The notes under the pieces: generated by a model
Database searches by the model: none
Told to the model about the DNA's origin: nothing
Seen by the model: only the letters and a program-made list of their open reading frames with translations
Shown here: positions 5,361 through 64,000 of the stretch, piece after piece
Layout of the letters: each line of letters opens with the position of its first letter
Numbering within the stretch: position 1 is the stretch's first letter
Translations under genes and position numbers: made by a program
Source: Prescottella defluvii
Lineage (GTDB): Bacteria > Actinomycetota > Actinomycetes > Mycobacteriales > Mycobacteriaceae
Direction: 5' to 3'
Length of the DNA: 64,000 bases
Assembly (NCBI GenBank): GCA_029690005.1
Contig: CP121458.1
Coordinates: 4,154,001 to 4,218,000 of the forward strand

Positions 5361-5477
5361 AGGTGGCAGCCTACGGCCACGACAGACACCGGTCACGCCC
5401 GGGACGGACAAGCAGGCACAGTCGCGGCGCCGGGAGTTGATGTGTGTCCTGAGTGACGGTTGCCTAAGCTCGTAAGC

Positions 5478-6194
5478 GTGGCCACTCAGAAGTCAGACGT
5501 GAATGCCCCGAGCGAGGTGCCCCGCCCGGAGACCCTGTCGTCGGTGGCGCAGGACTACCTCAAGGTCATCTGGACGGTCCAGGAGTGGTCCCGCGAACGC
5601 GTCTCCACCAAGCTGCTCTCCGAGCGGATCGGCGTGTCGGCGTCCACCGTCTCCGAGGCCATCCGCAAGCTCTCCGACCAGGGGCTCGTCGACCACGCCC
5701 GGTACGGGTCGATCGCGCTCACGGACGCCGGCCGATCCGCCGCGGTGTCGATGGTGCGCCGCCACCGACTGATCGAGACGTTCCTGGTGAACGAGCTCGG
5801 CTACGGGTGGGACGAGGTCCACGACGAGGCCGAGGTGCTCGAGCACGCCGTCTCCGATCGCATGATCGACCGTATGGACGCCAAGCTCGGGTTCCCCGAA
5901 CGCGACCCCCACGGCGATCCGATCCCCGCGGCGGACGGCTCGGTTCCGACGCCGCCGGCTCGGCAGCTCAGCGATTTCCAGGACGGCGATTCGGGGCGCG
6001 TCGCCCGCATCTCGGACGCCGATCCGGCGATGCTGCGGTACTTCGACTCGGTGGGCATCGCACTCGACACGGACATCACGGTCGTCGAACGGCGCGACTA
6101 TGCGGGCACCGTGTCGATCCGGCTCGGCGCCGATCCGGACGCCGGCACGGTCGACCTCGGCAACCCTGCCGCACAGGCGATCTGGCTCGTCTAG
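5478..6194 (+). CDS. mntR: DtxR-family manganese-type metalloregulator MntR
   Basis: Metal-dependent repressor with an N-terminal winged helix (LLSERIGVSASTVSEAIRKL), dimerisation/metal domain and C-terminal SH3-like domain; 238 residues from GTG 5478. Counting from that start, the predicted ligands are D26, H96, E100, H115, E119, E122 and H123. The DtxR iron-type residues equivalent to Met10 and Cys102 are Asp and Glu here, the combination seen in B. subtilis MntR (D8, E99), so Mn(II) rather than Fe(II) sensing is inferred. It is the positional equivalent of Rv2788 (sirR/mntR) next to ribF. An in-frame TTG at 5460 is an alternative start. The bases just upstream (TTGCCTAAGCTCGTAAGC) resemble a DtxR-type half site and may be self-regulatory. 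Confidence 0.93.
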   Translation: MATQKSDVNAPSEVPRPETLSSVAQDYLKVIWTVQEWSRERVSTKLLSERIGVSASTVSEAIRKLSDQGLVDHARYGSIALTDAGRSAAVSMVRRHRLIETFLVNELGYGWDEVHDEAEVLEHAVSDRMIDRMDAKLGFPERDPHGDPIPAADGSVPTPPARQLSDFQDGDSGRVARISDADPAMLRYFDSVGIALDTDITVVERRDYAGTVSIRLGADPDAGTVDLGNPAAQAIWLV

Positions 6195-53060: not shown

Positions 53061-53675
53061 TCACCAACCCGGCACGGACACCGGCACGTAGTGGAACCGC
53101 CCGGACGCGGACTGGAAGGTCGCGAGCGCCCGATCGATGTGCGACGCCGAGGTGACGAGGACGGCTCCGTCCGCGCCCGCGCCGGAGAGGATCTGGGTGG
53201 TGTTCCGGCGTTGTCGACCGTCGAGTACGAGTCGTTCTAGAATGATGTTGGCCGGATTGACACCCCGCAACGTGAGCCCGACGAGCATCGCCTGCGCCTC
53301 GGTGTACGGCAGCGGCTGCGTCGGCCCGCCCGACACGATCACCTTGTTCTGCGGATGGAGCCGGGCGATCGCCGCCGCGGCGTCGAGGCGTGCGTTGAGA
53401 ACGCCGGGCAGCAGACCGTCGGGATTCAGACGGGCACCGAGCACCACGATGTACCGGGAGGCCGGGTCGCCGGTGAGGTAGGCGTGTGCGGCGCCGTACT
53501 GCCCCAACGACGCGGCGGTGTCACCGATTCCGGAGGCCACGGTGTGCTCGACGGTGTCGATGCCCTGACCGATGATGCCCGGAATGTTGAGCGAGGCCGC
53601 CTCGGCGGGAGCCGCCACGAGAGCCGGGAGGAGGGCCACGCCGGCCACGACAAGTGTGGTTCTCAACTTCTGCAT
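53061..53675 (-). CDS. Secreted DUF218 (YdcF-like) protein
   Basis: 204 residues with a Sec signal peptide (MQKLRTTLVVAGVALLPALVAAPAEA-AS). DUF218 core: YIVVLGARLNPDGLLPGVLNARLDAA, VIVSGGPTQPLPYTEAQAM, LTLRGVNPANIILE and GAVLVTSASHIDRALATF. Family members bind nucleotides or act in envelope glycan processing; the function is not fixed. The usual ENRSxNT motif is altered to RLVLDGRQRRNT. Frame intact. Confidence 0.85.
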   Translation of the reverse strand: MQKLRTTLVVAGVALLPALVAAPAEAASLNIPGIIGQGIDTVEHTVASGIGDTAASLGQYGAAHAYLTGDPASRYIVVLGARLNPDGLLPGVLNARLDAAAAIARLHPQNKVIVSGGPTQPLPYTEAQAMLVGLTLRGVNPANIILERLVLDGRQRRNTTQILSGAGADGAVLVTSASHIDRALATFQSASGRFHYVPVSVPGW

Positions 53676-53842
53676 TCGCCTGTGTCTCTTCCGGGTTCGA
53701 CGGTCGGTGTCCAGTAGCGCGCGTCACACCCTACGTGAGGACCCCCACGCGTCAGCGCGTGCGGCGACCCAGGATGGGGACCGGTCACGGGACCGGACGG
53801 CGCACAGCCGCGATCACCAGGCACTTCGCGGCGACGTCGGCG

Positions 53843-54533
53843 TCAGTTCACGACCAACGCGAGCGCGAACCCGTCCCACCCTTTGGACCCGACGGTCTGT
53901 AGCGCGGTCGCATCGACGCGGGGTTCGTCGGCCAGCAGGCCCAGCACCTCGCGACTGGCCCGCACCGCCTCGTCGTCGAGGTCGGGATTGGACACCCCTC
54001 CCCGCGGACGACGTTGTCGACGACGATCACGGTGCCGGGCCGCGACAGTCGCAGCGCCCAGCGCACATAGTTGGAGTTGTTGACCTTGTCGGCGTCGATG
54101 AACACCAGGTCGAACGGCCCCATGCCGTCGGCCTCGACGCCCGGCAACGTGTCCAGCGCGGCACCGATCCGGATGTCGACCCGGCTCCCGACGCCGGCCC
54201 GATCGACGTTCCCCGCGCCACCGCGGCATGTTTCGGTTCGTACTCGAGCGTCACGACGCGACCTGACTCGCCCACCGCGCGGGCGAGCCAGATGGTGCTG
54301 TACCCGCCGAGCGTGCCGATCTCGAGCACCCGCGTCGCACCGACCATGCGCGCCAACAGGTTGAGGAACTTGCCCTGCGGCGGGGACACGTCGATCGGAG
54401 GTAGTTCGGCCGCGGCGTTCGCGCCCAGCGCCGCGCTGAGGTCGTCGTCCACGCCCACGACAGTCTCGACGAGGTAGTCGTCGACCTCGGCCCACTGTGT
54501 GCGTTCGGTGTGATCAGGATCAGCCATGGACAC
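53843..54533 (-). CDS. SAM-dependent O-methyltransferase, class I
   Basis: COMT-like small-molecule O-methyltransferase. Motif I: RVLEIGTLGGYSTIWLARAV; metal and catalytic segment FDLVFIDADKVNNSNYVRWAL; PGTVIVVDNVVR; ends GWDGFALALVVN. Indels near 54215 and 54000. Repaired length about 230 residues; start GTG 54533 or ATG 54527. It begins 3 bases after the acyl-CoA dehydrogenase stop, suggesting one operon. Substrates are often catechols or phenolic acids. Confidence 0.87.
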
Positions 54534-54536
54534 AGC

Positions 54537-56285
54537 CTAAGGCCGCATCTCGTAGGCGCCGTCGTAACCCGCGACCTGCTCCCACACACGCGCGAATCGT
54601 TCGGAGTCGACGACGGGCTTGCGGATCGCAGCGAGCGCCCACTGCTGCTGAGCATCGGTGGACGACGGCTTTCCGTGCAGCGCAACGGCATACCGCGAGA
54701 AGTCCCGGATCTGGATGTCGAAGATCTGCTCGATCAGGTCGCGACCGAGATCCACGACGTCGGCCTGCTCGAGGATCAACTGCCCGTACACGACCAGTTC
54801 GAACAGGTGCCCGACGGTGAGCAGGAAGTCGAGGTCCTCGCGCTGGGCGTCGTCGGGCCCGGCCGTGGCGAGCAGTTCCCGCAGCGCGAGCGCCTGCTCG
54901 AGGAAGCGCTCGACGTTGGGGATGTCCGAGTGCGCGGTGTAGATGCGCGTCCAGTCGTCGAACTGCACCTTCGCGGCGCCGCGCGCGGGACCCTGTTCCC
55001 AGAAGAACGTGTCGTCCGCGGCGTCGTCGCGGGTGCCGACGGCCGGGTAGTCGACGGGATTGAACAGGTAGTTCGGCATGAACTTGAGGATCAGCCCGAC
55101 GTTGACGTGCACCGTACCCTCGAGTTTCGGCAGGGTGCCGATCAGCTCGGCGGCCTCACGGAAGTAGGTGTCCTTCTCGTATCCCCTCGCGGCGATGACG
55201 TCGTGCAGCAGCGCCACCACCGCCTCGCCCTCGGAGGTGACCTTGGCCTTGGTCATCGGATTGAACAGCAGGTACCTGCGGTCCTCCGGACCGGCGCTGC
55301 GGAAGTAGTCGACGGCGCGGGCGCTGAAGAGCTTCATCGCGACCAGCCGGGTGTAGGCGTCGACGAAGTTCGAGCGCACGTGCGGGAAGTCGGTGACGCG
55401 CTTTCCGTACAGAATCCTGTTGTGCGCGTGCGTGATCGCCTCGAAGAACGCGTGCTCGCACATGCCGATCGACGCGGTGCACAAGTTGAACTTGCCGACA
55501 TTGACCGTGTTGAGCGCCGCCGAGAACGCGTCCGCACCGGTGTGCAGGATGTCCTCCTCACGCACCGGGTAGTCCCGCAGCGCGAACGTGCTCACGTACA
55601 TCTGCCCGTGCACGACGTTGTCGATCAGCCGGTAATGCAGGTTGTGGCTGTCGGCGACGAAGAAGACGTACCCGTCCGCGCCCTCGACGTCGGCCCGGCG
55701 ACCGAACACCGACACCATGCCGGCGACGTTGCCGTTGCCGATGTAGTACTTGGTGCCGTTCGCACGGAACACTGCGTCGTGGGTGCCGGCGGAGGTCTCC
55801 AAGGCCGGGGTGAGGAGCATGTCGGTGGAGTACACGTCGGCGCCGTGTTCACGCTCGGACAGCCCGAACGCCATGACGCCGCCCGCGTCGAGCTGTTCGG
55901 CGGCCCGTTCGCGGGCCGCGGCGTTGGCGCTCATCCAGATCGGCCCGAGCCCCAGCACCGTCACCTGCCACACGTACCAGTACGCGAGGCCGTAGAAGCC
56001 CAGGATCTCGCTGAGCGCCGCGTTTCGGGCCGCATCCCACCGCTTGTTGGGGTCACCCCCCGAGTCGGCGGCCGGCGTCAGGAACGTCGCGAACACCTTC
56101 TCGCGGCCGACGAAGTCCAGGAAGTCCCGCGTCCACACCGCGTGCAGGTCGTCCTGCAGGAGTCGCCGTTTGCCGCGGGCCTCGAACCAGTCGATCGTCG
56201 CCCGCAGCGACCGGCGCGTGTTCGGGTCGAACACCGTCGGGTCGTAGTCGTGCGGATTCAGCAGCAGTCGGTCCACCGTCCTCAC
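54537..56285 (-). CDS. Acyl-CoA dehydrogenase/oxidase family flavoprotein
   Basis: 582 residues from GTG 56285 (VRTVDRLLLNPHDYD), intact. Flavin and acyl-CoA dehydrogenase fold: GGVMAFGLSEREHGADVYSTDM, FRANGTKYYIGNGNVAGM, RILYGKRVTDFPHVRSNFVDAYTRLVAMKLFSARAVDYF. The long C-terminal part after about residue 450 suits an acyl-CoA oxidase-like subgroup. An upstream GTG at 56372 exists, but it falls in an inverted repeat. It is followed directly by the O-methyltransferase gene. Electron acceptor (oxygen or ETF) cannot be told by sequence alone. Confidence 0.87.
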   Translation of the reverse strand: MRTVDRLLLNPHDYDPTVFDPNTRRSLRATIDWFEARGKRRLLQDDLHAVWTRDFLDFVGREKVFATFLTPAADSGGDPNKRWDAARNAALSEILGFYGLAYWYVWQVTVLGLGPIWMSANAAARERAAEQLDAGGVMAFGLSEREHGADVYSTDMLLTPALETSAGTHDAVFRANGTKYYIGNGNVAGMVSVFGRRADVEGADGYVFFVADSHNLHYRLIDNVVHGQMYVSTFALRDYPVREEDILHTGADAFSAALNTVNVGKFNLCTASIGMCEHAFFEAITHAHNRILYGKRVTDFPHVRSNFVDAYTRLVAMKLFSARAVDYFRSAGPEDRRYLLFNPMTKAKVTSEGEAVVALLHDVIAARGYEKDTYFREAAELIGTLPKLEGTVHVNVGLILKFMPNYLFNPVDYPAVGTRDDAADDTFFWEQGPARGAAKVQFDDWTRIYTAHSDIPNVERFLEQALALRELLATAGPDDAQREDLDFLLTVGHLFELVVYGQLILEQADVVDLGRDLIEQIFDIQIRDFSRYAVALHGKPSSTDAQQQWALAAIRKPVVDSERFARVWEQVAGYDGAYEMRP

Positions 56286-56358
56286 CCTCCGCAGCGTGAG
56301 TCTGCGCCCCGGTCGGGGTCGCAGCCTCCACTGTCCTCCGGATCGGACGGCACCACCC

Positions 56359-56422
56359 CGCGTTTTGCGCACTAACCGGTGTCCCGGTCACCCGATCGGG
56401 ACCGAAACGTGCGCAAAACGCG
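56359..56422. repeat. 14-bp perfect inverted repeat with nested stem
   Basis: CGCGTTTTGCGCAC (56359-56372) is the exact reverse complement of 56409-56422. In between, GTCCCG (56381-56386) pairs with CGGGAC (56397-56402). It lies between the proS stop and the acyl-CoA dehydrogenase start. It could be a terminator for proS, an operator, or a dispersed palindrome. I found no further copy in the window. Confidence 0.65.
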
Positions 56423-56437
56423 GAGTCGGGAGCTGGT

Positions 56438-58184
56438 TCAGCCTCGGACGGCCGTCAGGATCTCGGCGAGCGCGCTGTCGGCGGCGATCTCACGAGCCTC
56501 GCCGCTGAAGCGGTCGCGCAGCTCCACCTTGCCGTCGGAGTAGCCGCGGCCCACGACCACGACGAGCGGGACGCCGATCAGCTCGGAGTCCTTGAACTTC
56601 ACGCCCGGCGACGCCTTGCGGTCGTCGAACAGGAGCCTCGATGCCGGCCTTGTCGAGCTCGGCGGCCAGCGCCTCGGCGCCCTCGCGGGCAGCCTCGTCC
56701 TTGTTCGCGATGACCAGGTGCACGTCGAACGGCGTGACCTCGGCGGGCCAGCGCAGGCCCTTGTCGTCGTGGTGCTGCTCGGCGATGACCGCGACCAGGC
56801 GGGAGACGCCGACACCGTACGAGCCCATGGTCGGGCGCACCGGCTTGCCGTTCTCGCCGAGCACGTCGACGGCGAACGCGTCGGTGTACTTGCGACCCAG
56901 CTGGAAGACGTGACCGATCTCGATGCCGCGGGCAGCGACCAGCGGGCCCGCACCGTCCGGCGACGGATCGCCGTCACGGACCTCGGCGGCCTCGATGGTG
57001 CCGTCCGGGGTGAAGTCGCGGCCGGCGACCAGGTCGACGTAGTGCTTGCCGACGACGTCGGCACCGGTGATCCACGACGTGCCGTCTACCACACGAGGAT
57101 CGACGAGGTAGCGAACCTCGTTGTCCAGCAGCGCCTTCGGACCGATGTAACCCTTGGCCAGGAACGGGTGCTTCGCGAAGTCCTCGTCGGTGAGCAGCGC
57201 GACCTCGGCGGGCTCGAGGGATGCCTCGAGGCGCTTGTCGTCCACCTCGCGGTCGCCCGGGATGCCGATGCCGAGCAGCTCCCACTCGCCGCCCGGCACG
57301 CGGGTCTTGACGATGATGTTCTTGAGGGTGTCGGCGCCGGTGATCGTGCGCCCCAGCCCCGCGGAGTTGGCCCACTCGACCAGCGCGTCGATCGTCGGGG
57401 TGTCCGGGGTGTCGTGGACCTTCGCCTCCGGCAGGCCGTCGAACGGGATCGCCGCCGGAGCGAGCGTCTTGACGGCCTCGACGTTGGCCGCGTAGCCGGA
57501 CTCGATGCAGCGGACGTAGGTGTCCTCGCCGATCTCACTCTCGGCGAGGAACTCCTCCGAGGCGCTGCCGCCCATCGCGCCCGACGTCGCGGACACGATC
57601 ACGTACTTGACGCCGAGGCGCTGGAAGATCTTCTCGTAGGCGTCGCGGTGCGCCTTGTACGACTCGGCGAGGCCATCGTCGGTGAGGTCGAAGCTGTACG
57701 AGTCCTTCATCACGAACTCGCGACCGCGCAGGATGCCGGCGCGCGGACGCTCCTCGTCGCGGTACTTGGTCTGCACCTGGTACAGGGTGACCGGGAAGTC
57801 CTTGTACGAGTTGTACTCGCCCTTGACGGTGAGGGCGAAGAGCTCCTCGTGCGTCGGGCCGAGCATCATGTCGTTGCCCTTGCGGTCCTTCAGCCGGAAC
57901 AGGCCGTCGCCGTACTCGGTCCACCGGTTCGACGTCTCGTACGGATCGCGCGGCAGCAGCGCCGGCAGGAGGATTTCCTGCGCGCCGATCCCGTTCATCT
58001 CCTCGCGGACCACGCGCTCCACCTCGCGCAGCACCTTCAGGCCGAGTGGCAGCCACGAGTAGACGCCTGGCGCGATGCGCCGCACGTAGCCGGCGCGAAC
58101 CAGCAGCTTGTGGCTGGCGACCTCGGCGTCGGCCGGGTCGTCGCGGAGCGTGCGGAGGAACAGGTGCGACATGCGGGTGATCAC
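56438..58184 (-). CDS. proS: Prolyl-tRNA synthetase
   Basis: Class II aminoacyl-tRNA synthetase, bacterial type with editing insertion. Motif 1 region [33 protein letters not shown], motif 2 [28 protein letters not shown] editing domain (about residues 220-400, with [16 protein letters not shown]), and class II motif 3 region [22 protein letters not shown]. Starts [16 protein letters not shown] at GTG 58184. One indel near 56637 before [21 protein letters not shown]. Repaired length about 582 residues. In M. tuberculosis it directly follows the Rv2844 gene; here about 38 kb intervenes. Confidence 0.96.
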
Positions 58185-58292
58185 GTTGTAGCAGCCTAGT
58201 CGGTCGAGCCGGCGAGACCGATCGAGGGCGCTGTCGGCGATCAGGAAGGAGGTTCACAGCGGGCTGCCAGGTTCTCGCACCACACTGGAGGC

Positions 58293-59705
58293 GTGGCTGC
58301 GATTACTTCGTCACTTGCCCCGCTCGCGGCGCCCGCGCCGCCGGCGGGCGGCTACCACAGCGGATCCTCCGGGATCTCGTTGCTGGCCGGGTGGCTGCCG
58401 TTGACGATCGAGATCATCACTGTCGTGGTGTTGATCGTCGTACTCGTGCGGAGCAGTCGACGCTGGTGGATGTTGTGGGTGCCGGTGGCCGCGGCGCTCG
58501 GCGTGGCGGCCGCGGCGATCGCGCACTGGTTCGTGAACCAGCAGGGCCTGGCGTCGGATCCGCACCCATGCAGTTGTGGCTGTGGTCTGCGGTGTTCGTC
58601 GGGTCGCTCGCCGTCACAGTCCTGGGCTGGCGGGGCACTCGCTGGTGGCGGCGCGCCCTGTCGATCGTGCTGGTCCCCCTGACGTTCACCTGTGTCGCGC
58701 TGACACTGAACCAGTGGGTCGGCTATTACCCCACCGTGCAGGTGGCGTGGGCGGCCGCGACGGCCGGACCGGTTCCGGACCAGGTGGATGCGTCGGACCT
58801 CCCCGGCCTGCGGGGCACGTCGATGTCGACCGGCAAGGTCGTGGCCGCCGACATCCCCGACAACGGGAGCGGCTTCAAGCACCGCACCGAGTACGTGTAC
58901 CTACCGCCGGCATGGTTCGCCGGGGACACGCCCCCGCAGCTGTCGGTCCTGATGATGGTCGGGGGCGAGTTCAACACGGCCGCGGACTGGCTGCGGACCG
59001 GGAATGCAATCCAGACCGTCGACGACTATGCGCAGGCGCATGGCGGGCAGGCCCCGATCCTGGTGTTCGTCGACGCCGGCGGCAGTTTCAACAACGACAC
59101 CGAGTGCGTCGACGGGCCCCGAGGCAACTCGGCGGCGCATCTTGTCGACGACGTCCGTCCGTACGTGCTCTCGACATTCGGGGCGTCCGCCGATCCGACG
59201 AACTGGGGGTGGTCGGGTGGTCCATGGGCGGCACGTGCGCGGCCGATCTGACGGTCATGCACCCGATCTGTTCACGACGTTCGAGGACATCGCCGGCGAC
59301 ATCGGGCCCACGGCGGGCACGGACGATCAGACGCTCGACCGGCTCTACGGCGGTGACACCGCGCTGCGCGACCGGTTCGACCCGACGAAGGTGATGATCG
59401 CGCACGGCCCATACCAGGGCGTGACGGGCTGGTTCCAGGACAGCGATGTCCCGCCCCGGTCCGGTCCGTCGCCGGCCGCCCCGCCGCCGAGTTCGGGACG
59501 CGACGGTCTCGGCGGACAGGACGGCACCCACGACACGGGCGAGACCGGTGCCGCGGAACAGTTGTGCGCGACCGCGCAGTCGGTCGGCATCACGTGCAGC
59601 GTGCACACATCGAACGGCCGTCACACCTGGCAGTTCGCCGCACAGGGTTTCGCCGACGCGTTGCCGTGGCTGGCGACACAGATCCACACACCCGGCGCCT
59701 CCTGA
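58293..59705 (+). CDS. Membrane-anchored esterase (mycolyltransferase-like alpha/beta hydrolase)
   Basis: N-terminal region with about four hydrophobic helices (LTIEIITVVVLIVVLV; MLWVPVAAALGVAAAAI; LWLWSAVFVGSLAVTVLG; ALSIVLVPLTFTCVALTL), then an extracytoplasmic esterase-D/antigen-85-like domain. Catalytic Ser in GWSMGGTCA, catalytic His in NGRHTWQF. Indels near 58566, 59205 and 59265. Repaired length about 470 residues; GTG 58293 start. Probably a cell-envelope acyl esterase or mycolyltransferase-related enzyme. It lies just upstream of the iron-box-regulated surface gene, on the same strand, about 175 bases away. Confidence 0.8.
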
Positions 59706-59782
59706 CGGCCGGTCGCACCGCCGGCGCCCCCTCGGCGAGGGTGCGAGTTCGAAACTTCCCAAAACAGACTGCAGATGATGTA

Positions 59783-59823
59783 GCTTAGGCTCGCCTGAGC
59801 AAACTTAGGCTCACCTTCATCGC
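59783..59823 (+). promoter_or_regulatory. IdeR/DtxR-like iron box(es) upstream of surface protein A
   Basis: TTAGGCTCGCCTGAGCAAA (59785-59803) matches the DtxR/IdeR 19-mer TTAGGTTAGGCTAACCTAA at about 14 positions and is centred in an imperfect dyad GCTTAGGCTCGCCTGAGC (59783-59800). A weaker second site, TTAGGCTCACCTT, begins at 59805. They end about 58 bases before the ATG at 59881. Iron repression is inferred. Confidence 0.65.
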
Positions 59824-59880
59824 TGGTCGCGGCACCGCCGGGTGCCGCGACCGCGGCTGTGACCAGGAAGAAGAAGGAAG

Positions 59881-61967
59881 ATGCGCGCGTTCACCAGGGC
59901 TGCCATCGCGACCGTGGCAGTCGCCGTGGCATTGACGACGCCGGTCGGCATCGCGATTGCCGACCCCGACACCTCGACCGTGGACGGAGGCAGCGCCCTC
60001 CAAGCCGTGTCCGCCACTCCGGTCACAACCGTCTCCAAGACGTCCGGCCTGAAGGCCGCCGGCGAGACCGTCACCGTCTCGGGCACCGGGTTCTCCAGCA
60101 GCGGCCCCGGGATCTACGTCGGCCTCGTTCAGGACGACAAGTTCTCGACCACCAACGCCGACGCCTGGATCTCGACGACATTCATCCGGCCGAACCAGAT
60201 CACCGGCGGCGCCTGGTCGACCACGCTCGACGTCATGGCCGTCGCGGGCACCTCGGACTGCACCGTGAACGCCTGCTCGATCTACACCGTCGCCGCCCAC
60301 GGCTCGTCGGACCGCAGCCAGGACACCCGGACGCCGGTGACGTTCGCGGCCACGACCCCGACGACCACTACGACCGCACCTCCGACGACAACCACACCGC
60401 CCACGACGACCACGACGCAACCGCCGACGACAACCACCACCACCACACCGCCGACGACCACGAAGACCAAGCCGCCGACGACCACGAAGCCGACCACGAA
60501 CCCGCCGACCACAACTACGACGACGACGCCCGCAACGAGTAACGGCCCCAAGGTCAACGCGAGCAAGACCAGTGGGCTGAAGGCCGCCGGCGACCGGATC
60601 ACCGTGCGCGGCAGCGGTTTCTCCACCTCGGGTCCGGGCATCTACATCGGCGTCGCGCAGATGAATCGCTACTCGCACACCGACGCATCGGTCTTCCACA
60701 ATGCGATGTTCATCAAGCCGAGCGACATGCCCGGTGGCTCCTTCTCGACCACGCTCGAGGTCATCGGCGCCTTCCCCGGCGGCGACTGCGTCGCGAACAC
60801 CTGCGCTATCTACACGCTCGCGGCCCACGGCTCGTCCGACCGGAGCCAGGACACCGTCACCCCCATCAGCTTCGTCGGCACGGCTCCCCCGGTCACACAG
60901 CAGCCTGGCGGCGGAACCGGCACCGGCACCGGCGGCGGGGCTGCGACCGACGGCGGCGTGGCCGGTGCGGCGCCCGGCACCACGTACACCGCGAACGGCA
61001 GCCTGTCGGTGTCGCTTTCGAAGGCGAGCGAGATCAACCCGTCGGGTGAGTCGGTCACGATCTCGGGCTCCGGCTTCTCCGGCGCCGCGCCCGGCCTGTA
61101 CGTCGGCCTGGTGCAGGACAACGTCTTCTCCTCCTCCGACGCATCGGTGTGGATGACCTCCGCATTCGTCAAGCCGGAGCAGATTTCCGGCGGCAACTGG
61201 TCCATCCCGATGGAACTCGTCGCCACGTCGGGCGCCTTCGACTGCGTCAAGAACGCCTGCTCGATCTACACCGTCATGGCACACGGCTCCTCGGACCGCA
61301 GCCAGGACACCAAGACCCCGTGAGCTTCGTCGGTGGTGTCGCACCGGGCACGGTCACGGCCCCGCCCGCACTGACCGGCGCCGGCGCTCCCGGCGCCGCG
61401 AAGACCGTCGCCGTGACCCTGTCGAAGGCGAAGGGACTGAAGGTCGACGGCGAGGAGATCACCATCTCGGGCACCGGATTCTCGGGTGCGCAGCCCGGCA
61501 TCTACGTCGGCCTCATCCAGGAGAGCAAGTTCTCCACCACCGACGCCGGCGCCTGGATGACCACGGCGTTCATCACGCCGGGCAGGATCAAGGACGGCGC
61601 GTGGTCGACCACGATGAAGGTCCAAGCAGTCAAGGGCGACTCGGACTGCACCAAGAACGCCTGCTCGATCTACACGATCGCCGCACACGGCTCGAGTGAC
61701 CGCAGTCAGGACACCCAGACTCCCGTCAGCTTCGGCGACGACCGCAATGCGCCCAACGCCGACAAGGCCGAGGACGTGGCGCTGGCGGCGACCGACGGAT
61801 CGAACGGCGACGGAGGGTCGTCGTCGAATTCGGTTGCCTCCGCGTTCCGCAACCTGGCCGACGCCATCGCCGACGGCACGGCGTGGATCATCCCGCTGCT
61901 GATCGGCGGCGTGCTCGGAGCAGGGCTCGCGGCCGGCACCACCTTCGCGCTGCGGCGCCGCAGCTAG
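59881..61967 (+). CDS. Iron-box surface protein A with four ~105-aa repeats
   Basis: Signal peptide of about 27 residues (cleavage near GIAIA-DP), then four copies of one domain at about residues 50-155, 225-331, 374-484 and 510-620, and a C-terminal membrane helix with a basic end (ALRRRS), without an LPXTG motif. Each repeat has SGLKAAGETVTVSGTGF-type start, GIYVGL, two Cys five apart (DCTVNACSIYT) and the end motif HGSSDRSQDTxTPVxF. A 65-residue Thr/Pro linker separates repeats 1 and 2. One base is missing near 61319; repaired length 695. The fold resembles neocarzinostatin-type Ig domains, but I do not recognise a family. Ribosome-binding AAGGAAG precedes the ATG. Role in iron or haem capture is inferred from the promoter. 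Confidence 0.8.
60352..60540 (+). repeat. Low-complexity Thr/Pro linker coding repeat
   Basis: About 190 bases of near-repetitive CCGACGACCAC units encode a Thr/Pro-rich linker (over two thirds Thr) between repeats 1 and 2 of surface protein A. Such linkers are typical of stalks that span the cell wall and are often O-mannosylated in actinobacteria. The DNA is prone to slippage and copy-number change. Confidence 0.8.
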
Positions 61968-61980
61968 CACGATCCCACCC

Positions 61981-62017
61981 TCGGTGAGGGGCATCCGAGT
62001 CGGATGCCCCTCACCGA
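61981..62017 (+). terminator. Perfect 16-bp hairpin after surface protein A
   Basis: TCGGTGAGGGGCATCC (61981-61996) is perfectly complementary to 62002-62017 with loop GAGTC. It lies 13 bases after the stop at 61967 and so separates surface protein A from B as independent units. Confidence 0.85.
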
Positions 62018-62096
62018 AGCATGCCGTGAATCGCTGTCGTACAACGTTATTCGTCCACGTGCCGACGCAGCTCCACCCCTTTACTTCACATTGAAC

Positions 62097-62115
62097 TAAG
62101 GCTAGCTTTACCTAA
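62097..62115 (+). promoter_or_regulatory. IdeR/DtxR-like iron box upstream of surface protein B
   Basis: TAAGGCTAGCTTTACCTAA matches the 19-base IdeR/DtxR consensus at 14 positions and ends 42 bases before the ATG at 62158. It is in the same relative place as the box before surface protein A, which supports joint iron control. Confidence 0.7.
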
Positions 62116-62157
62116 GCATTCGCCTCGTGACGGCGACCCACACCAGAAAGTAGGAAG

Positions 62158-63523
62158 ATGCGCGCGTTCACCAAGTCCGCGGTCGTGGCAGTTGCCGCCA
62201 CGATCGCCTGCACGCTCCCGATGGGCGTCGCGGCTGCCCAGGCCAGCCCGTTCGGCTCGCTGGGCAGCCTCGGTTCGAGCGACCCCGGCACCGAGAACCC
62301 GGGAACGGAGAACCCCGTACCCCAGGTCACGGTGCCGAAGTCGACCGACATCGCCGCCGCCGGTGAGAACATCACCATCTCGGGCACCGGCTTCGACGGC
62401 GCCGCGGCCGGCACCGGCCTGTACGTCGGCGTCATCCAGGACGACAAGTGGTCCCCACCGACGCGAGCGCCTGGGGCGCACAGACCTTCGTCCGCCCGAC
62501 CCAGATCGTCGGCGGCGCGTGGAGCACCACGCTGAACATCAAGGCGATCCAGGGCGGTGCCGACTGCCTCGCCAACGCCTGCTCGATCTACACAGTCATG
62601 GCCCATGGGTCCACCGACCGCAGCCAGGACACCAAGACCCCGATCACCTTCGCACCCCCGGTCGTCGTGCCGGCCGGGCCGGCGGTGACCGTATCGAAGA
62701 CCGCCGGTCTGACGGACGGTGAGACGCTCACCATCACCGGTACCGGGTTCGGGCGCGGTGGCCAGGGCATCTACGTCGGCCTCGCCCAGGCCGACAAGTA
62801 CTCCCCGAGCAGCAGCAGCGCCTTCAACTCCTCCGCGTGGATCAAGGCCGCCCAGATCGTCGACGGCGGCTTCACCACCACGCTGAAGGCCACCGCGATC
62901 AAGGGCGACGCGAACTGCTTCGAGAACGCGTGCTCGATCTACACCCTCGCCGACCACTACTCGCTCAGCGACCGCACCCAGGACACCCAGACGCCGGTCA
63001 CCTTCGTACCGCCGGTCGTCGTGCCCACCGGGCCCGCGGTGACCGCTTCGAAGACCCAGAACATCGCAGCCGCGGGTGAGGACATCACCATCTCCGGCAC
63101 CGGCTTCGAAGGCGCCGCGACCGGCACGGGCCTCTATGTCGGCGTCATCCAGGACGGCAAGTGGTCCCCACCGACGCGAGCGCCTGGGGCGCACAGACGT
63201 TCGTCCGCCCGACCCAGATCGTCGGCGGCGCGTGGAGCACCACGCTGAACATCAAGGCGATCCAGGGCGGTGCGGACTGCGTGGCAAACGCCTGCTCGAT
63301 CTACACCGTCATGGCCCACGGCTCAGCCGACCGCAGCCAGGACACCAAGACCCCGATCACCTTTGCGCCGGCCGCCGCGAACGCGGTCGTCGATGCTCCG
63401 GAGATCCAGAACGTCGCCAGCGTCGAGTCGGACGCCGGTAAGGGCCTGCCGATCGCTCCGCTTGCCGTCGGTGGCGCCATCGCCGTCGGCCTGACCGCGC
63501 TGGCACTGCGTCGTCGCGCCTGA
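62158..63523 (+). CDS. Iron-box surface protein B with three ~105-aa repeats
   Basis: Paralogue of surface protein A: same N-terminal MRAFT(K/R), signal peptide (cleavage near AAAQA-SP), three repeats with DCLANACSIYTVMAHGSTDRSQDTKTPITF-like ends, and C-terminal membrane helix ending ALRRRA. Repeat 2 differs (DHYSLSDRTQDTQTP). No Thr/Pro stalk. Two single-base deletions, near 62455 and 63170, occur in the same CCCC context of repeats 1 and 3. Repaired length 455. AGGAAG directly precedes the ATG. Localisation is the outer face of the membrane; ligand is unknown. Confidence 0.8.
62446..63280 (+). repeat. 122-base near-identical direct repeat inside surface protein B
   Basis: 62446-62567 and 63159-63280 are identical at 120 of 122 positions and lie 713 bases apart, covering the middle of repeats 1 and 3. 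Repeat 2 between them is much more diverged at this stretch. This pattern suggests recent gene conversion or intragenic duplication, and could allow repeat-number change. Confidence 0.85.
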
Positions 63524-63546
63524 TCCGAAACCACTGACGCAACCCT

Positions 63547-63580
63547 GTCCGGCCTCCGTTCCTCGGAACGGAGGCCGGAC
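63547..63580 (+). terminator. Perfect 16-bp hairpin after surface protein B
   Basis: GTCCGGCCTCCGTTCC (63547-63562) is complementary to 63565-63580 with only TC between, so the apical pairs open to form a small loop. It follows the stop at 63523 by 23 bases and precedes yaaA. Confidence 0.85.
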
Positions 63581-63617
63581 CCGTTTCCGGGCGAGGCACC
63601 CGGTACGGTGGTCTACC

Positions 63618-64000
63618 GTGCTGGTGCTGCTTCCCCTTCCGAGACGAAGTCCGACGGCGGCAAGGGGGCGCCGCTCGATCTGGGTGAACTGTCGATGCCG
63701 CAGCTGACCGCGACCCGCGAGATGCTCGCGCAGGCCCTCGTCGATCTGTCGACGGACACCGACGCGTCGAACCTGGCGCTCGGCCTCGGCCCCGAGCAGG
63801 CCGACGAGATCGAACGCAACGCCAAGCTGTGGGTCTCCGCCACACGTCCCGCCCTCGAGCGGTACACCGGCGTGCTGTTCGACGCGCTCGACGCCAAGTC
63901 GTTCACGAAGGTGCAGCGGGAGAAGGCTTTTCGCCGACTCGCGATGGGCTCGGCGCTGTTCGGCGCGGTTCGGCCGGTGATCCGATCCCGGCGTACCGGC
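63618..64000 (+). CDS. yaaA: Peroxide stress protein YaaA (UPF0246), 3' end outside window
   Basis: Starts at GTG 63618. With one C restored near 63634 the N terminus reads VLVLLPPSETKSDGGKGAPLDL, the YaaA hallmark; later ERYTGVLFDALDA and SALFGAVRP (then DPIPAYR after another base near 63982). E. coli YaaA limits unincorporated iron and DNA damage during H2O2 stress. About 128 residues are in the window. It follows two iron-box genes, though a strong hairpin separates it from them. Confidence 0.9.

Follow-up and report, generated by a model that had tools for sequence, protein, structure and literature searches.

Genes A and B are neighboring open reading frames (ORFs) near the end of a 64,000-nucleotide stretch of the Prescottella defluvii genome (GenBank assembly GCA_029690005.1, contig CP121458.1, positions 4,154,001–4,218,000 of the forward strand; the whole stretch is termed the window). 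Both encode proteins that carry several copies of a repeat with a conserved Cys pair, and the locus raises the question of what this repeat does. A preliminary description of the sequence proposed an immunoglobulin (Ig)-like domain of the neocarzinostatin type, in which a Tyr and a His might serve as metal or heme ligands. The analysis given below suggests that A and B are probably membrane-anchored heme-acquisition proteins, controlled by IdeR and built on the neocarzinostatin fold, with heme as the likely ligand. The suspicion of a heme function is strengthened by the gene neighborhood and domain fusions in relatives, and by iron boxes.

Repeats in genes A and B

Gene A has four repeats and gene B three, spanning positions 60010–63370 of the window (Table 1), in agreement with the seven repeats originally described. 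The signal peptides of the two proteins are alike, both starting with MRAFT. A core sequence DCxxNxCxIYT had been assigned to all seven repeats; CxxNxCxIYT is indeed present in each of them, but the leading Asp is found in six, as B2 reads N-C-x-x-N-x-C. The tail sequence HGSxDRSQDT, said to be present in all repeats except B2, is found in those six, the tail of B2 being DHYSLSDRTQDT.

Five repeats can be read in one frame. Four of these display 42–55% amino acid (aa) sequence identity to the fifth, B2, and 29 alignment columns are invariant, thus the repeat pattern is not due to chance. The Tyr of a GIYVG motif (Tyr33 in the numbering of repeat A4, which is used throughout) is also invariant in the window repeats, alongside the Cys pair.

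Distribution of the repeat family

Thirty relatives were searched. The family is present in 10 of 13 genomes of the same genus and absent from three, and the 17 relatives outside the genus gave no match to the window query. A scan of genome contigs with an alignment of 17 repeats, and with two peptide patterns (N-x-C-x-I-Y/F-T and D-R-S/T-Q-D-T), yielded 43 loci (designated by L numbers). These are found in Prescottella/Rhodococcus, Tomitella, Gordonia, Corynebacterium, Embleya, Actinomadura, Thermomonospora, Micromonospora, Leifsonia, Nocardioides and one metagenome-assembled genome (MAG) of the Chloroflexi.

The window repeats belong to class I of the family. A divergent domain, termed class II, adjoins hmuT-like genes in Actinomadura, Thermomonospora and Micromonospora. 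A comparison of the class II and class I profiles links the two classes with a probability of 99.7 (E-value = 1.9e-25).

Predicted fold of the repeat

Repeat A4 was modelled with AlphaFold2 from an alignment of 73 domains, i.e. 68 of 90 non-redundant relatives and five window repeats. The model has a predicted local distance difference test score (pLDDT) of 95.8 and a predicted template modelling score (pTM) of 0.89, and displays the seven-stranded Ig-like fold of neocarzinostatin. In a structure comparison with VIA-align, ranks 1–10 are all enediyne apoproteins, engineered variants included, with Z scores of 10.4–12.2; the next row has 8.2. The best match is neocarzinostatin 2cbo (Z = 12.2, root mean square deviation 1.9, 97 aligned positions), and Z scores are 12.1 for macromomycin, 11.5 for C-1027 and 10.8 for actinoxanthin. 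This bears out the neocarzinostatin-type Ig-like fold that had been proposed from the sequence. The plain Foldseek list has SKICH and antibody domains on top and no member of the neocarzinostatin family among the 50 matches listed; the fold assignment rests on the second look with VIA-align, for which a model of the class II domain provides a second case (enediyne apoproteins at ranks 1–10, Z = 9.6–12.6; next 7.0).

Sequence alignment also confirms that the Cys pair is at the position of the DCTTAAC sequence of neocarzinostatin. The two disulfides of neocarzinostatin, which we take to be Cys37–Cys47 and Cys88–Cys93, are not both represented in class I, where the later Cys pair alone is kept, window repeats included. 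Class II has two pairs, and its extra, earlier pair (C43...C55) resembles Cys37–Cys47.

For the Pfam family Neocarzinostat (PF00960, cut-off 25 bits), the B2 region scored 22.7 and 25.1 bits in two scans, and the family is not among the matches listed for the other four window pieces. Four of ten relatives scanned pass this cut-off: L071 (67 bits), L081 (49.6), L084 (40.4) and gene B of L062 (34.4). The L071 score, the highest of the proteins scanned, belongs to a Rhodococcus paralog whose N-terminal domain has Phe for His, and which is found at L071 (positions 312–2165), L073 (10283–12103), L075 (6624–8513) and L077 (6675–8501).

Pfam IPT/TIG (PF01833, cut-off 20.9 bits) is listed for three of the five window pieces: the first open piece of gene A (25.5 bits) and the second of gene B (22.9) are above the cut-off, and with 16.5 bits the first piece of B is below it. 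All ten relatives scanned fall below the cut-off of 86 for the NCBIfam enediyne antibiotic chromoprotein family (NF040680), the best having 62.7. HtaA (PF04213) shows no match in any of the five window pieces, and NEAT is not among the Pfam families listed for these pieces and the ten relatives.

Conserved residues of the domain

Residues were counted in 172 distinct sequences of 173 class I-type hits that cover most of the profile with at least 25 bits. They come from loci L034–L058 and L062–L104, with L033, L060 and L061 left out; the clade labels used in the counts are names for L062–L104 and a guess for L034–L040. Cys81 and Cys86 are kept in 167 domains each. Asp98 (167), Arg99 (168), Gln101 (167) and Asp102 (166) are likewise conserved, but the D-R-x-Q-D counts, as well as those of the CxIYT-like residues, are inflated because the two search patterns contained such letters.

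Tyr33 and His94 are in neither search pattern. Tyr33 is present in 165 of the 172 domains and His94 in 149 (65 of 82 outside Rhodococcus), and in class II both the GIYVG-type Tyr and the His are found in 15 of 15. Thus the conservation of the His, put forward in the preliminary description, extends to distant relatives. A clade count had given His in 146 of 152 domains after nine rows labelled "other" and 11 N-terminal domains with Phe or Leu had been dropped; this is circular since the Phe/Leu domains were removed beforehand, and 149/172 is used instead.

The Tyr of the CxIYT sequence (Tyr89) does not show such conservation. It had been proposed as the partner of the His, with free variation in distant homologues named as the observation that would speak against this, and it does vary: 105 of the 172 domains have Tyr here; outside Rhodococcus the count is 25 of 82, and among the Actinomadura/Thermomonospora, Micromonospora-type, Leifsonia and Chloroflexi domains, which mostly have Ile, Met, Leu or Val instead, it is three of 34. 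If a Tyr acts together with His94, Tyr33 is the candidate suggested by the alignments. In the model, Tyr33 stands where strand C begins. Given the order of the strands and a typical Ig topology, this residue and the FG loop that bears His94 would be at the same end of the domain, opposite the disulfide. Neocarzinostatin chains display a Tyr within about two columns of Tyr33 in printed alignments, and Tyr33 may be common to the antibiotic carriers, hence structural.

Linkage to heme uptake genes

The 43 loci were scanned with Micromonospora radicis proteins as queries. An hmuT-like gene was found in 19 loci, an hmuU-like permease gene in 18 and a heme oxygenase gene in 10. The linked loci are from Corynebacterium (a kroppenstedtii-like pair), Actinomadura, Thermomonospora, Micromonospora, Leifsonia, Nocardioides and the Chloroflexi MAG. 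In the two Embleya loci, nothing was found beyond a weak match to an ATP-binding cassette (ABC) ATPase (L086) and a WxLIP-like protein.

The L096 locus of Micromonospora radicis encodes, in this order, heme oxygenase, an ABC ATPase, FecCD, Peripla_BP_2, a class II domain protein, and a fusion of HtaA (aa positions 43–205) with the domain (aa positions 217–345). Similar fusions are present in Micromonospora loci L099 and L095. A Leifsonia protein (L090) has four domain matches followed by HtaA at positions 990–1145, and Big_3_5 Ig repeats as well, and in the Chloroflexi MAG (L089) the domain and an HmuT-like Peripla_BP_2 are in one protein. Family proteins with a single domain adjoin HmuT-like genes in relatives.

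In 298 genomes of the order, HtaA is found in 13 of 27 genomes with the domain vs. 25 of 271 without it. Heme oxygenase is found in 17 of 27 vs. 99 of 271, a weak excess (p = 0.012); as the genomes are related and hence not independent, this and the other p-values of the comparison overstate the case. Within 10 kb or less of the domain, heme oxygenase is present in 10 of the 27 genomes, HtaA in 10, and either one in 12.

The window itself has no hmuT- or hmuU-like gene and no heme oxygenase gene. In the genome from which the window comes, heme oxygenase and HmuT-, HmuU- and HmuV-like genes are located together at another locus. No HtaA was found in this genome, thus the family is there not simply a stalk for such a partner; weak HtaA matches (E-values 1e-9 to 1e-11) occur in some other genomes of the genus (G001, G006).

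WxLIP-like proteins similar to that of L096 are encoded in 14 of the 43 loci (L086–L088 and L091–L101, Embleya included), and some domain proteins show weak WxL matches under the cut-off. These matches hint at a cell-wall scaffold for heme receptors.

Iron box sequences

For all box counts, the sequence TWAGGTTAGSCTAACCTWA, which we take to be the DtxR/IdeR box consensus, was used as a fixed reference; a pattern modelled on the site before gene A was set aside as circular. Box-like sequences precede both window genes (Table 1). The box of gene B is the only 19-mer of the window with three or fewer mismatches, and none was found in 100 shuffles. Three overlapping sites precede gene A with five mismatches each; in 10 first-order Markov sequences, sites with five mismatches numbered 0.2 per 64 kb on average. 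Several relatives have sites with a similar spacing.

The boxes are also frequent at the other loci. Within a zone of 300 nucleotides (nt) upstream or the first 60 nt of the ORF, a box with three or fewer mismatches is present in 51 of 91 family ORFs vs. 6 of 353 control genes from the same 43 loci, and a box with five or fewer mismatches in 69 of 91 vs. 6 of 353 other genes. Some of the 91 ORFs overlap, and several closely related species are represented; as related genomes are not independent, the p-values overstate the case. The genome of the window carries an IdeR-like repressor gene, and a four-mismatch box precedes its heme oxygenase gene. From the box sequences, genes A and B look iron-regulated, presumably by IdeR in this strain.

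A second gene of the DtxR repressor family is located in the window at positions 5460–6194. It scores 72 bits against PF01325 and is separated from A and B by about 54 kb.

Frame breaks and sequence quality

Three repeats are interrupted by frame breaks, A3 at its end near position 61320, and B1 and B3 (Table 1). In the nearest relative (L022) both genes are unbroken and encode 694 and 450 aa, and gene A is a single open frame of 664–734 aa in the Prescottella/Rhodococcus loci L062–L070. One-base length differences from L022 are also present within other genes of the region, upstream (a methyltransferase, prolyl-tRNA synthetase and hydrolase, read by eye) and in several downstream. Four of six FecCD genes elsewhere in the genome look split, and genome completeness is 79. 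The assembly seems error-rich. As other genes are also hit and completeness is 79, the frame breaks in A and B look like sequence errors and were treated as such. The three breaks could also be read as a sign of pseudogene decay of both genes in this strain, but the one-base differences across the region, the split FecCD genes, the completeness value and the unbroken proteins of the nearest relative make this very improbable.

The second halves of B1 and B3 are nearly identical, and the frame break is at the same place in the same sequence. This suggests a recent duplication or gene conversion plus one systematic error. Programmed frameshifting at this shared sequence was considered and dropped, since relatives have one open frame and other genes are broken too. 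Many intragenic one-base length differences from the nearest relative are found in window positions 53634–64000 and the next 10 kb (L119).

Proposed function and alternatives

A and B would be secreted, membrane-anchored surface proteins of Prescottella (Rhodococcus equi clade) with four and three neocarzinostatin-fold domains, respectively. Each domain is predicted to be an Ig-like sandwich of seven strands with a structural disulfide (Cys81–Cys86) at one end and, at the opposite end, a putative conserved tip, to which Tyr33 and the FG loop A-H94-G-x-x-D-R-x-Q-D would contribute. When iron is plentiful, both genes would be repressed by IdeR. When iron is scarce, the domains would be displayed on their linkers, most likely to capture heme or to offer a source of it; the heme would then be passed towards HmuT-HmuUV, and its iron freed by heme oxygenase. 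Such a receptor would have the role of HtaA/ChtA in Corynebacterium and of NEAT proteins in Bacillota, but with a different fold as its binding module.

Several observations weigh against this proposal. Neither an hmuU- nor an hmuT-like gene is found in 24 of the 43 loci (some of the contigs are short): these are all 14 Rhodococcus/Prescottella loci (L062–L073, L075 and L077), Tomitella, four Gordonia, three Corynebacterium and two Embleya loci. A and B are about 456 kb from the hmu locus of their own genome. In 15 of the 27 domain-bearing genomes neither heme oxygenase nor HtaA is within 10 kb. Heme oxygenase is present in all 14 genomes of the genus that were searched, the three that lack this family among them; it thus does not require A and B, which look accessory. 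Good boxes are missing in the Corynebacterium and Gordonia loci (best 5–10 mismatches), and the best box has six mismatches in the Chloroflexi locus and eight in Nocardioides. As to the proposed site, conservation of D-R-x-Q-D is inflated, its letters being part of one search pattern. His94 is replaced by Arg in three Micromonospora-type genomes, whose domain is in one reading frame with HtaA, as well as in two B2-type repeats of Rhodococcus, and by Phe or Leu in 11 N-terminal domains. In addition, the respiratory protein ThiX has the Tyr and the His, and the excerpts on it in PMC8795186 state no heme role; the Tyr33/His94 pair may thus be structural.

Ig and TIG folds often act as spacers, and the domains could be structural: iron-regulated Ig-like spacers or stalks that hold a heme-binding HtaA domain off the membrane in Micromonospora and Leifsonia, and a ligand-less, adhesin-like layer in Rhodococcus. 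The Pfam TIG scores above cut-off, the linkers that separate the repeats, and the Leifsonia protein, in which the domain and Big_3_5 Ig repeats are combined with one C-terminal HtaA, are all consistent with such a role. But a plain spacer would need neither Tyr33 nor His94 unless for folding, and both are widely kept although neither was part of a search pattern; the genome of the window has no HtaA partner, and one-domain proteins stand beside HmuT-like genes. A purely structural role is considered unlikely. Also doubtful is a binding of the domains to a heme carrier (hemoglobin or another hemoprotein) or to a cell-envelope protein, with the conserved loop as a protein-protein contact. The conserved loops are presumed, from the inferred strand pairing, to be at one end of the sandwich, in the manner of an antibody site, and ThiX, a relative of class II, is a subunit of a membrane protein complex; yet a loop that faces a varying partner would be expected to vary, and many of the genera live in soil or water, where hemoglobin is scarce.

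A third alternative is that the ligand is another small molecule connected with iron, for example a siderophore or a tetrapyrrole precursor, and is bound in the cleft that holds the chromophore in enediyne apoproteins. The iron boxes would fit with this, as would a fold that is shared with carriers of aromatic ligands, including the engineered steroid binders 2cbo and 2cbq. The linked genes that were identified are heme-specific, however (heme oxygenase, HtaA), and no siderophore synthesis gene is present among the neighbors scanned with Pfam, which are a part of all neighbors; a ligand of this type is judged improbable. Heme acquisition is the function that is preferred here for A and B.

Comparison with known proteins

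The repeats share their fold and the place of one Cys pair with the enediyne apoproteins (PF00960). Unlike these, proteins of the window family are repeated, membrane-anchored and iron-boxed, and their A-H-G-x-x-D-R-x-Q-D loop falls outside the stretch aligned to neocarzinostatin.

NEAT (Isd) proteins of the Bacillota have several Ig-like domains in one surface protein and relay heme. The window family would work alike if the heme function is correct, but it has a conserved Cys pair and no NEAT match. The CR domains of HtaA and ChtA (PF04213) are surface or secreted beta-sandwich domains which, according to excerpts of PMC12494546, hold hemin by an axial Tyr that is assisted by a His or another Tyr; this makes Tyr33/His94 a natural suspect for a heme site. 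The axial Tyr of CR is in a helix (PMC12494546, excerpts), whereas Tyr33 is in a strand in the A4 model. As shown above, HtaA is fused to the neocarzinostatin-fold domain in Micromonospora and Leifsonia.

Among solved entries, the best sequence match is ThiX of the Corynebacterium glutamicum bcc-aa3 supercomplex (7qhm_M), with E-values of 2.8e-5 to class I and 6.2e-9 to class II. Aligned with class II, ThiX has both the Tyr and the His, and also two Cys pairs, the later one and one at the position of the earlier pair, the second Cys of which is shifted by one column. Part of its D-R-x-Q-D loop is lost. In the parts of PMC8795186 that concern it, ThiX is a lipoprotein subunit of the respiratory supercomplex with an unresolved soluble domain; it has a genetic link to thiamine synthesis, and its enzymatic activity is called unknown.

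A wider possibility is put forward tentatively, namely that Gram-positive bacteria have in this domain a third hemophore fold in addition to CR (HtaA) and NEAT: an iron-regulated heme module, present across Actinobacteria and in one Chloroflexi genome, with a Tyr33/His94 site at the loop tip. It would have a common ancestor with the enediyne apoproteins, one that held flat aromatic ligands. ThiX would be another member of this lineage, perhaps with a part in heme handling for cytochrome bcc-aa3. If the heme function is right, it would explain how Prescottella and related bacteria without a strong HtaA could capture heme, would give a testable function to proteins that are labelled merely TIG or neocarzinostatin-like in profile libraries, and would tie an antibiotic-carrier fold to iron nutrition, with ThiX drawn in. 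No literature joining neocarzinostatin-type domains with heme uptake is among the matches listed, as judged by titles and abstract openings, and the matches listed for Rhodococcus equi and iron or heme contain nothing on these proteins.

Locations of features and the neighboring gene

Table 1. Genes, repeats and box sequences at the A/B locus (window positions)
Feature	Position	Strand	Remarks
IdeR/DtxR-like boxes before gene A	59780–59818	+	three overlapping 19-mers at 59780, 59785 and 59800; five mismatches each to TWAGGTTAGSCTAACCTWA
Gene A	59881–61967	+	signal peptide, four repeats, Thr/Pro-rich and Gly-rich linkers, C-terminal hydrophobic segment, RRR tail
Repeat A1	60010–60351	+	
Thr/Pro-rich linker A1–A2	60352–60546	+	
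Repeat A2	60547–60885	+	best stretch for Pfam TIG
Repeat A3	60997–61320	+	end cut by frame break
Repeat A4	61407–61739	+	domain modelled by AlphaFold2
Codon of Tyr33 in A4	61503–61505	+	
Codon of Cys81 in A4	61647–61649	+	
Codon of His94 in A4	61686–61688	+	
Hydrophobic segment and RRR tail at C-terminus of gene A	61884–61967	+	presumed membrane anchor
IdeR/DtxR-like box before gene B	62097–62115	+	three mismatches; 42 nt before gene B
Gene B	62158–63523	+	signal peptide, three repeats, C-terminal hydrophobic segment, RRR tail
Repeat B1	about 62329–62656	+	frame break near 62454
Repeat B2	62676–63008	+	variant tail DHYSLSDRTQDT
Repeat B3	about 63030–63370	+	frame break near 63167
Hydrophobic segment and RRR tail at C-terminus of gene B	63443–63523	+	presumed membrane anchor

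Directly after gene B, positions 63608–64000 of the window contain the start of a YaaA gene (PF03883, peroxide stress). Members of the YaaA cluster are present in 19 of 54 clustered sequences, all from Prescottella/Rhodococcus, with some genomes represented twice.

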